This document shows, piece by piece, positions 1 to 4,263 of a DNA stretch of 64,000 nucleotides (position 1 is the first letter of the stretch; the number at the start of each line of letters is the position of its first letter). A program made the position numbers and the translations under genes. A model generated the notes under the pieces. That model worked only from the letters and a program-made list of their open reading frames with translations, searched no databases and was not told the origin of the DNA. Origin of the DNA: Candidatus Annandia adelgestsuga (GTDB lineage: Bacteria > Pseudomonadota > Gammaproteobacteria > Enterobacterales > Enterobacteriaceae_A); the NCBI RefSeq assembly GCF_003956045.1, contig NZ_CP026513.1, positions 182,363 through 246,362 on the forward strand. Reading direction: 5' to 3'.

Positions 1-772
1 ATTTTTTTTTTTTTTTATTAATTAATATCATAGATATATTTTTTTTTTTAACCATTCTTAATATTCTTTGATCATCCTCATTTCCTACTGGTTTTATAAG
101 ACAACTTACTCCCATTTTTTTTATCATACTTATATAACATTCTTCTAAAAATTCGCAATCAATTATAGCCATTACACAACTTTTGCTTATTGGTTTATAA
201 CACATTTTTTTTTTATAACGGTTTTCTAACATTTCCATTGTTTCAAAATGATTAACATGTCTATTATATGCATATATAATATATTCTATATTTATTTTCA
301 GTACCATATTATAAGCAAACATGCAATCTTCTATTTCTCGAAAAGATGGAACTCTATCCCCTATACTCATTAATGTTGTATCACTATATTTAATATTATT
401 ATCACTATTAAATATCATTTCATTATTATATATTAATATAAAGGTATATTTTTTTTTATTTAAGTTTTTTATTATATGTGTTGTAAAAGGTATAATAGCT
501 ATTTTAATATTTTTATTTTTTATTGAATTTTTCATTATTTCAAAATATAAATTTTTATTGAAAAATCTTAATTGGGGACAAATATATAAAGAAGAATATA
601 TATAATATATTTTATATTTAGATAAAATTTTTTCCATTTCATTTATAATATAATTATAATTTTTAGATTTAATTATAATGCCAATATATATTGGCAATTC
701 AATATTTTTTTTAAAAAAATAATCTATATTATCATATAAAAAATTTTTATTTTTTAATTTATAAATTTTCAT
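1..772 (-). CDS. purH: PurH C-terminal (AICAR transformylase-like) half, separate open frame, partial at window edge
   Basis: An uninterrupted frame of 257 codons starts at ATG 772 and is still open at base 1. Its second half resembles the C-terminal part of PurH: residues around GDRVPSFREIEDCMFAYN, then IIYAYN, then SCVMAIIDCEF, then MGVSCLIKPVG follow the E. coli order ELRDALF, IVYAKN, SSMASDAFF, AGVTCVIQPGG. Key residues are gone. The KHANPCG signature aligns at best with IKSKNYN (residues 34-40), losing the catalytic His. The SNAIVYAKN stretch reads IEYIIYAYN, and the glycine-rich GIGAGQ is absent. About 40 residues at the start of the domain (with MRYGENSH) are missing. It lies 25 bp downstream of the N-terminal half in another frame, has no Shine-Dalgarno sequence, and an in-frame TAA sits 15 nt before the ATG. 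It could be a decaying pseudogene or a maintained non-enzymatic protein. Confidence 0.6.
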   Translation of the reverse strand, partial: MKIYKLKNKNFLYDNIDYFFKKNIELPIYIGIIIKSKNYNYIINEMEKILSKYKIYYIYSSLYICPQLRFFNKNLYFEIMKNSIKNKNIKIAIIPFTTHIIKNLNKKKYTFILIYNNEMIFNSDNNIKYSDTTLMSIGDRVPSFREIEDCMFAYNMVLKINIEYIIYAYNRHVNHFETMEMLENRYKKKMCYKPISKSCVMAIIDCEFLEECYISMIKKMGVSCLIKPVGNEDDQRILRMVKKKNISMILINKKKKK

Positions 773-797
773 AATTTTTAAATTTTATTTATAAATA

Positions 798-1394
798 TTA
801 AATTTTATTATTTTTTTTTAAAAAATTTAAAAGTTTAATTTCATATTCAACTATATATTTAAATGCTTTTTTTGCTAATTTTTTTTTAGTTTCTAATTTT
901 ATACAATCATTGTTTTCATTCATTTCCTCAATAATTTTTTCATGTTTATCTATTACAATAGTAACTTCTTTATTATTTATAATAGCAGATTTTATTAAAG
1001 AAATATTACCTATTTCTATATTTTTAATTATATTTTCTAATTCAATATTTTTAATTTTTTTTAATTTATCAAAAGGTATTAAATCTACACATATCATATC
1101 AATAGGTACAACTCTATTATGTAACATAACATTATGGTCTTTAATACGTTTTCCTAAAACACCAGCATGTATTCTAGGATGTAAAACATTAATACTATTT
1201 ATAATAATATCAGGAAATTGTACATAATCAGAAAAACTAGTAGAAAAAATATTATTTTTTTTTAATATTTTTTTAGTTTTACTTGTAGATAATAAATTTA
1301 TATTTTTTTTAAATAATTGATTTACAAAATTTAAAATTAAATATATATTATATACATTAATTAAAACACATTTTATTGGATAATTTTCTTTCAT
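798..1394 (-). CDS. purH: PurH N-terminal (IMP cyclohydrolase-like) half, catalytic residues lost
   Basis: This 198-residue frame matches the N-terminal cyclohydrolase domain of PurH, which closes FAICAR to IMP. Alignable landmarks are LLST (34-37), FSDYVQFP, LHPRIHAGVLGKR, PIDMICVDLIPF, NIEIGN and KEVTIVID. Human ATIC catalytic positions are changed throughout: Lys66 to Asn (SINVLHP), Tyr104 to Ile (DLIPF), Asp125 to Glu (NIEIG) and Lys137 to Ile. The SGGT phosphate loop reads TSKT. The frame ends at the usual boundary between the two PurH domains (about residue 200 of 529). A good AAGGA lies upstream of the ATG, and aroQ is 63 bp upstream on the same strand. Function is doubtful; the homology is fairly clear. 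Confidence 0.65.
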   Translation of the reverse strand: MKENYPIKCVLINVYNIYLILNFVNQLFKKNINLLSTSKTKKILKKNNIFSTSFSDYVQFPDIIINSINVLHPRIHAGVLGKRIKDHNVMLHNRVVPIDMICVDLIPFDKLKKIKNIELENIIKNIEIGNISLIKSAIINNKEVTIVIDKHEKIIEEMNENNDCIKLETKKKLAKKAFKYIVEYEIKLLNFLKKNNKI

Positions 1395-1457
1395 TTTAAA
1401 ATCCTTTATAATATAATTATTAATTTTAAAAATATAATTTTATAATTTATAAAAAAT

Positions 1458-1895
1458 TTATTTACTATAAATTTTTAATATATATTTTAATGCTAAAAAA
1501 TATCCATAAGTACCAAAACCGCAAATAATTCCATTAGATATATTTGATATATAAGATTTATGTCTAAAATTTTCTCTAGAAAATATATTAGAAATATGTA
1601 CTTCAATAAAAGGTATTTTTACTGATAAAAGTGAATCTCTTAAAGCTATACTAGTGTGAGCGAAAGCTCCTGGGTTAATAATTATATAATCAATTTTTTT
1701 ATATGATTTATGAATTTTATTAATTAATAAACTTTCTGAATTTGTTTGAAAATCAGTTAATAAAATATTTTTTGTTTTAACAATATTTTTTAAATCTAAA
1801 ATTATTTTTGATAATTTTTTATTACCATATATATCATTTTCTCTTTTTCCTAATAAATTTAAATTAGGTCCATTTAAAACTAAAATATTATACAT
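1458..1895 (-). CDS. aroQ: type II 3-dehydroquinate dehydratase
   Basis: Converts 3-dehydroquinate to 3-dehydroshikimate, step three of the shikimate pathway, as a cytosolic dodecamer. The 145-residue length is normal for the family. The start LNGPNLNLLGKRE (8-19), Tyr23 (IYG, the catalytic Tyr), NPGAFAHTSIALRD, EVHISN with the catalytic His, REnFRHKSY, and GFGTYGYFLAL near the end are all present. AAAGGA stands upstream of the ATG. E. coli uses the unrelated type I enzyme AroD, while several insect symbionts of the enteric group keep type II AroQ. With aroC elsewhere in the window, this suggests that at least part of chorismate synthesis is kept. It is probably co-transcribed with the purH remnants downstream. 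Confidence 0.95.
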   Translation of the reverse strand: MYNILVLNGPNLNLLGKRENDIYGNKKLSKIILDLKNIVKTKNILLTDFQTNSESLLINKIHKSYKKIDYIIINPGAFAHTSIALRDSLLSVKIPFIEVHISNIFSRENFRHKSYISNISNGIICGFGTYGYFLALKYILKIYSK

Positions 1896-3131: not shown

Positions 3132-3794
3132 ATGATTATAAAAAAAAATAGATATAATCAATTAAAATTATTTTCAAAAAAAAATGATATTTATAGTCAT
3201 AAAATTAGAATGGTATTATCAATAAAAAATTTATATATTAAAATAAATAAAATATTATTAAATAATTTACCTAAAAAAATATTTAATTTTTATAATTATA
3301 AAAAAAAAAAAAAAATATTTTTTAGTAAAAGATTAATGTTGATAGATAGATATATAATATTATATGAATCAAATATTATTATAAATTATATAAATGAAAA
3401 ATTTCCTTATCCTATTTTAATTTCAAAAAATATTTTAAAAAAAAGTGAAAATAATTTTATTACTAATAATATAAAATTTAATTGGTATAAATTAATAAAT
3501 ATAATTGATAACAATATTAAAAATTATAAAGAAAAATCCAAAAATCAATTATCAAAAGAATTTTCAAAATTAAGTTATTTTTTTATTAAAAAATCTTCTT
3601 TTTTAATAAATTTAAAATTAACTTTATTAGACTGTTATATAGCTCCAATTTTATGGAAAATAAAAAAATTAAAAATAAATATAAATGGCAAATATAAAGA
3701 TGAAATATATAATTATATGTATTATGTATTTTCTCAGGAAAAATTTATAAAATCACTTACTAAATATGAAAAAAAATATTATTTTAAAATATAA
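3132..3794 (+). CDS. sspA: stringent starvation protein A
   Basis: A glutathione-S-transferase-fold protein that binds RNA polymerase and changes promoter use in stationary phase. The 220-residue sequence follows E. coli SspA: LFSKKNDIYSHKIRMVLS (13-30), LYESNIIINYINEKFP (77-92), a C-terminal domain with LTLLDCYIAPILW, and a final SLTKYEKKYY. Gene order rplM-rpsI-sspA matches E. coli; sspB is absent. The surface Pro-His-Pro motif used by E. coli SspA reads Pro-Tyr-Pro (residues 92-94). Keeping a stationary-phase regulator in so reduced a genome is notable. AAGAGA lies before the ATG. Confidence 0.85.
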   Translation: MIIKKNRYNQLKLFSKKNDIYSHKIRMVLSIKNLYIKINKILLNNLPKKIFNFYNYKKKKKIFFSKRLMLIDRYIILYESNIIINYINEKFPYPILISKNILKKSENNFITNNIKFNWYKLINIIDNNIKNYKEKSKNQLSKEFSKLSYFFIKKSSFLINLKLTLLDCYIAPILWKIKKLKININGKYKDEIYNYMYYVFSQEKFIKSLTKYEKKYYFKI

Positions 3795-4008: not shown

Positions 4009-4263
4009 TTGAAAAGTAAAGAAATTTATCTTATTTTAAATAAAAAATTAAAATTAAAAAAAATATACGTTGATGGTAATAATGGAAATTTTAATATAAT
4101 TGCTATAGATGATATTTTTGAAAAATTAAGTTATGTAAAACAACAAAAAATAATTTATGAACCGTTATCTGAATATATTTTTAAAAAAATAATACATTCT
4201 TTAATAATAAAAACATATTCATTAAAAGAATGGAAAAATAAAATAAACAAATATAATAAATAA
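4009..4263 (+). CDS. ibaG: BolA-family protein IbaG
   Basis: BolA/YrbA family protein, 84 residues as in E. coli IbaG. These proteins partner monothiol glutaredoxins in Fe-S or iron handling. The match runs the full length: VDGNNGNFNIIAIDDIF (21-37), VKQQKIIYEPLSEYI and IHSLIIKTYSLKEW, with the conserved His of the IHxxxIKTYT-like signature. It begins at TTG 4009; AGG lies 11 nt upstream and no in-frame ATG precedes the conserved part. In E. coli it sits next to murA, which is absent here. An A/T hairpin begins just after the stop. Confidence 0.85.
   Translation: MKSKEIYLILNKKLKLKKIYVDGNNGNFNIIAIDDIFEKLSYVKQQKIIYEPLSEYIFKKIIHSLIIKTYSLKEWKNKINKYNK

Follow-up and report, generated by a model that had tools for sequence, protein, structure and literature searches.

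A split and catalytically disarmed PurH, probably conserved as a pseudoenzyme pair, in the reduced genome of Candidatus Annandia adelgestsuga

Within a 64,000-nucleotide stretch of the Candidatus Annandia adelgestsuga chromosome (hereafter the window), the bifunctional purine enzyme PurH persists as two separate proteins in which the catalytic and ligand residues of both activities are gone, while comparison of codons with the sister species shows that both reading frames have been held by purifying selection since the two species separated. We consider it likely that these two PurH-derived proteins persist as a conserved pair of pseudoenzymes that work without catalysis, the two pieces probably performing a non-enzymatic role that is so far undescribed. 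Pseudoenzymes of this kind are known in principle; this particular form was not found in the literature searched, a set that does not include the 2018 Annandia genome paper. Genomes of this size are expected to retain only necessities, and in minimal genomes a dead gene is commonly written off as decay. In this case the decay hypothesis can be tested, and it fails.

Results

Two adjacent reading frames correspond to the two domains of PurH

The genome comprises 334,746 bp at 17.8% GC, and its single relative in the same genus (G001), which we infer to be Ca. Annandia pinicola, comprises 348,580 bp at 18.7% GC. Among adelgid symbionts, chromosomes can be as small as 0.34 Mb with GC as low as 17.8%, and nearly all genes are common to the two Annandia species (PMC8857208). 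The locus lies at the very start of the window, where the minus strand reads aroQ, then an open reading frame (ORF) for the N-terminal half of PurH, then one for the C-terminal half that is open to the window edge:

1458 to 1895, minus strand: aroQ, type II 3-dehydroquinate dehydratase (NCBIfam; gene order in the free-living gammaproteobacteria L039 and L040)
1401 to 1405, minus strand: AAGGA, Shine-Dalgarno-like, preceding the N half (the sister genome has AAGAAG at a comparable site)
798 to 1394, minus strand: PurH N-terminal domain (IMP cyclohydrolase, MGS-like), a stand-alone ORF of 198 aa (NCBIfam PRK00881, AF2, Foldseek, omega)
773 to 797, minus strand: spacer between the N-half and C-half ORFs, 25 bp, leaving them in no common frame (24 bp in the sister genome)
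2 to 772, minus strand: PurH C-terminal (AICAR transformylase) remnant, a separate ORF with 257 aa visible (PRK00881, hhalign, Foldseek, omega)

The C half is cut short at its 3' end by a 100-N assembly gap (genome 182263-182362) that directly adjoins window base 1; beyond the gap lies a convergent gene that reads, by its translation, as rpoC. The edge of the window falls at a poly-A/T run next to this scaffold gap, one of five such 100-N gaps genome-wide. The three minus-strand genes are possibly co-transcribed. On the other side of aroQ, the divergent aroQ-rplM intergenic region (1896-2259) is very A+T-rich and about 360 bp long, compared to about 750 bp in the sister genome.

Sequence and fold homology to PurH extends across both domains. 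The N half matched the PurH model (NCBIfam PRK00881) with an E-value of 1.3e-39 over model positions 3-196, and the C half with an E-value of 5.6e-07 over positions 346-504; profile-profile comparison gave 7e-34 for the N half and, using hhalign, 1.6e-6 for residues 68-251 of the C half. In a contig profile search with the N half, whose coverage may not extend to the records of near relatives, all matches were distant intact PurH proteins (E 2e-27 or better, 28-34% identity). Matches to lysine decarboxylase (E 0.22) and bVLRF1 (E 0.17) were set aside as chance. The original prediction, made from sequence alone, had described frames of 198 and at least 257 codons, 25 bp apart and in different frames, as the two domains of PurH, with AAGGA kept before the first; ORF coordinates and profile matches bear this out, the AAGGA was located, and profile, profile-profile and Foldseek searches all pointed to PurH and to no other family.

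Both active sites have been dismantled

Both halves and their sister counterparts were aligned with 21 intact PurH proteins to compare residues whose catalytic and ligand roles follow the original prediction and known ATIC structures. In the N half, both species have substitutions at S15, K17, G38, G39, R67, K69, T70, N104, Y106, G130, and K139 (E. coli numbering), and at six of these catalytic or ligand columns they have the same derived residue (S15Y, K69N, N104D, Y106I, G130N, and K139I). Position D127 reads E here and D in the sister, and the SGGT loop, the old phosphate loop, reads TSKT here and TESI there. At the cyclohydrolase positions expected in a functional PurH, which, as in the original prediction, are taken to be K66, Y104, D125, and K137 in human numbering, the residues are thus N, I, E (D in the sister), and I, and the GGT loop is lost. 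The alignment therefore agrees with the substitutions first proposed, except that Glu at D125 is specific to this genome, since the sister still has Asp there. Preferential loss of ligand residues over other invariant residues of the N domain did not reach significance (retained in both species: 5 of 19 vs. 31 of 70; Fisher p 0.19), and the five ligand positions retained in both (V14, V103, L105, I128, and G129) include no polar catalytic residue.

The C half is eroded in both species as well. The NNIADTDAA and KHANPCG segments are deleted, together with ~70-90 residues of the transformylase domain, and RYGENPHQ, SNAIVYAK, and GIGAGQ are unrecognizable, so that the motifs expected of a functional transformylase (KHANPCG with its catalytic Lys-His, RYGENPHQ, and GxGAGQ) are missing from both genomes. 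Loss of the KHANPCG, SNAIVYAKN, and GIGAGQ signatures had been predicted, and for KHANPCG the loss is an outright deletion. Overall, 16 of 147 near-invariant positions of the transformylase domain are retained in both species.

Both frames are conserved and under purifying selection

In the sister genome, too, both ORFs lie between rpoC and aroQ, in identical architecture and with no internal stops: an N half of 199 aa (67% identity) and a C half of 264 aa (64% identity) with a normal stop. Because the derived residues and the deletion are common to both species, both activities were lost before the species separated; comparison of the two sequences thus shows that the split of purH and the loss of cyclohydrolase and transformylase residues predate their divergence. 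The Annandia lineage is thought to be older than the Adelges-Pineus split, more than 87 My ago (PMC8692619), and if the Annandia identification holds, these losses are older than that host split. Across the only two sequences that exist, strictly conserved blocks include LHPRIHAGV, NRVVPIDMICVDLIPF, YKIYYIYSSL, and KKKYTFILI.

Selection was measured on the two-species pair with an MG94-type codon model fitted by maximum likelihood (ML) with position-specific base frequencies, a choice made because the extreme A+T bias compressed dS under NG86. The N half gave an omega of 0.241 (LRT vs. 1 = 23.6, p 1.2e-6) and the C half one of 0.264 (LRT = 25.1, p 5.5e-7), against a genome-wide median of 0.138 and 95th percentile of 0.295. 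Both halves fall in the upper quarter of the genome; omega for genes read as SecY, YidC, and RpoD is 0.26-0.33. Constraint is present at both ends of the N half (omega 0.25 and 0.23) and over the latter half of the C-terminal ORF (0.21), and is weak in the first quarter of the C half (residues 1-66; omega 0.43, LRT 2.2). Shifted sense frames of the same alignment gave omega >1 and 36-60 stops.

Predicted folds

AlphaFold2 (AF2) modeled the N half with a pLDDT of 79 and a pTM of 0.79, and pLDDT fell below 50 only at residues 63-69 and 125-128, i.e., the former substrate and catalytic loops. By Foldseek this model matched ATIC/PurH with TM scores of 0.82-0.84, followed by ForH, and PurH of M. 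acetivorans (9ou7_DA) was among the structural matches. The AF2 alignment included five intact PurH sequences, and since such rows pull a model toward the PurH fold, this prediction is supportive, rather than independent, evidence that the N half retains it. The C-half model is credible for residues 133-253 only, which match PurH by Foldseek; AF2 gave no credible fold for residues 1-132. Loss of catalytic residues, purifying selection, and a retained fold (in the N half and, partly, in the C half), as expected of a pseudoenzyme, are thus found together at this locus.

A vertically inherited gene that outlived its neighbors and its pathway

In L039 and L040 a single strand carries aroQ, accB, accC, prmA, a zinc-ribbon protein, dusB, fis, purH, and purD (aroQ, purH, and purD located by tblastn, the remaining genes by reading ORFs). 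Here, aroQ and the PurH halves keep this ancestral arrangement on one strand, and all the genes that once lay between them or beyond them have been deleted (accB, accC, prmA, dusB, fis, and purD), from which we conclude that the gene was vertically inherited and outlived its neighbors. Four genomes of ~200 kb from another genus of the family, which we take to resemble the weevil symbiont Nardonella, yielded no match to purH or aroQ.

The pathway has disappeared as well. Using E. coli queries, tblastn detected none of purA, B, C, D, E, F, K, L, M, N, guaA, guaB, and eight his genes in this genome or in the sister; weak matches to purN and guaA were read as Fmt and TrpG. With de novo purine, gua, and histidine genes absent, the cell has no known reaction that yields AICAR and no enzyme to carry IMP further; a supply of AICAR and a use for IMP, both expected around a functional PurH, are thus missing. 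A gpt-type xanthine phosphoribosyltransferase is encoded at genome 23313-23771 and is apparently the purine salvage route of this genome. Buchnera and Blochmannia, in which the purine synthesis of insect endosymbionts is likewise cut to the AICAR-onward steps, retain these steps fed by histidine synthesis (PMC2649895), whereas this genome has lost histidine synthesis together with all the downstream genes. By analogy, a histidine-fed, AICAR-onward route of this type was likely an intermediate stage of the Annandia lineage.

Discussion

Why the frames remain open

The original prediction had left a choice between selection on a non-enzymatic product and very slow decay. Plain decay, with frames open by chance or for want of time, would fit the lost catalytic residues, the split gene, the vanished pathway, and an omega above that of three quarters of genes. 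Yet omega is significantly below 1 in both halves (0.24 and 0.26 rather than the ~1 of a decaying gene), neighboring genes have been fully removed, and, if the Annandia identification holds, the losses are older than the >87 My host split (PMC8692619). Moreover, when neutral drift was simulated at 0.4 substitutions per site (roughly half of the dS between the two species), ~26 stops were expected over both ORFs and none of 2000 runs stayed open, whereas the actual ORFs contain no stop. None of the usual marks of a pseudogene was found, whether omega of ~1, stops or frameshifts, or a lack of conservation in the sister. Because the sister lineage split off without either copy acquiring stops, with omega well below 1, ~26 neutral stops expected, and the N-half fold kept, we reject plain pseudogene decay, which we regard as very unlikely. 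Constraint on an overlapping RNA or on antisense ORFs instead of two proteins is close to negligible in probability: antisense ORFs of 94 and 105 codons do exist, but substitutions are fewest at sense codon position 2 and most frequent at position 3, and every antisense frame of the aligned pair has 11-28 stop-containing codon columns.

Selection on the product accordingly stands while decay falls away, and the choice is now between a non-enzymatic product and an enzyme with a different reaction. The latter, in which the old active sites were dismantled and another reaction arose on the same fold, would be compatible with purifying selection and with the blocks strictly common to both species (e.g., LHPRIHAGV and NRVVPIDMICVDLIPF). 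We consider it unlikely, as the phosphate loop differs between the species (TSKT vs. TESI), order in the modeled substrate loops is poor, and no pathway gap was found for such an enzyme to fill. Residual classical activity, with AICAR imported from the host or a companion bacterium and IMP handed back, is highly improbable. The presence of folD means that folate one-carbon units may exist, and the overall PurH fold is predicted to be kept in the N half, but both species lack the KHANPCG segment and any equivalent of Lys66, Tyr104, and Lys137, and there is no purA or guaB for IMP use.

A possible second function of PurH

Retention of a dead, split, and pathway-less PurH for >87 My, as dated from the adelgid host phylogeny, implies a second PurH function separable from its chemistry. 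We infer that, as in Buchnera and Blochmannia, the recycling of AICAR from histidine synthesis would have kept purH in place after the de novo purine pathway was gone. Histidine genes, purA, and purB would then have been lost while the folded PurH core stayed under selection for a second property that does not involve catalysis, with the N half keeping its fold and probably still dimerizing, and the C half acting as its partner.

The most concrete candidate for this property would be an association with some other macromolecular machine, e.g., the ribosome. In the single case we found described of PurH in such a job, two copies of M. acetivorans PurH with empty active sites, joined through their N-terminal domains, bridge 50S subunits together with two aEF2 (PMC12605026). 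This precedent and a missing HPF make a ribosome role a specific candidate: no HPF family member was found in this genome, which is suggestive at most. That the pair forms a dedicated non-enzymatic complex on the bacterial ribosome, e.g., a hibernation or subunit-storage factor, is by this analogy conceivable but quite unlikely, the alternatives being binding of another partner or a new enzymatic role. The methanogen ribosome dimerization factor (PMC12605026, 9ou7) resembles the Annandia pair in that PurH works with empty active sites and its N-terminal domains dimerize; however, that protein is an intact archaeal enzyme, while here PurH is bacterial, dead, and in two parts, with ribosome binding a candidate. 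If the ribosome reading is true, the pair would be a bacterial counterpart of the Methanosarcina PurH-based 50S dimerization factor. With the 2025 report of the archaeal ribosome-bridging PurH, a hidden role of a textbook enzyme becomes directly testable.

Relation to known families

The bifunctional PurH/ATIC families (NF002049, TIGR00355, PF01808, PF02142) are alike in the homology of both domains, the N-half fold, and the aroQ...purH order. In contrast to them, the Annandia protein is split, 70-90 transformylase residues are deleted, and the catalytic and ligand residues are gone, and NCBIfam cut-offs are far above the score obtained here (402 vs. 136 bits). ForH (PDB 6nko; Foldseek TM 0.76-0.79), an IMP-cyclohydrolase-like protein of formycin biosynthesis, is a natural example of the N-half fold as a stand-alone domain, ~190 aa long. 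ForH is presumed to be an enzyme, whereas the active-site residues known from PurH are gone here.

Other observations in the region

Downstream of rplM-rpsI, a diverged SspA (stringent starvation protein A) ORF at 3132-3794 on the plus strand scores 137 bits against a cut-off of 314, and is possibly another protein drifting from its own family. It is followed at 4009-4263 on the same strand by a BolA/IbaG-like ORF that starts with TTG and scores weakly against its family (27 vs. 137 bits). In the other genus of the family (L075, L076, and L078; ~200 kb genomes, 15-18% GC), cls is found beside rpsI, as tested in L075.
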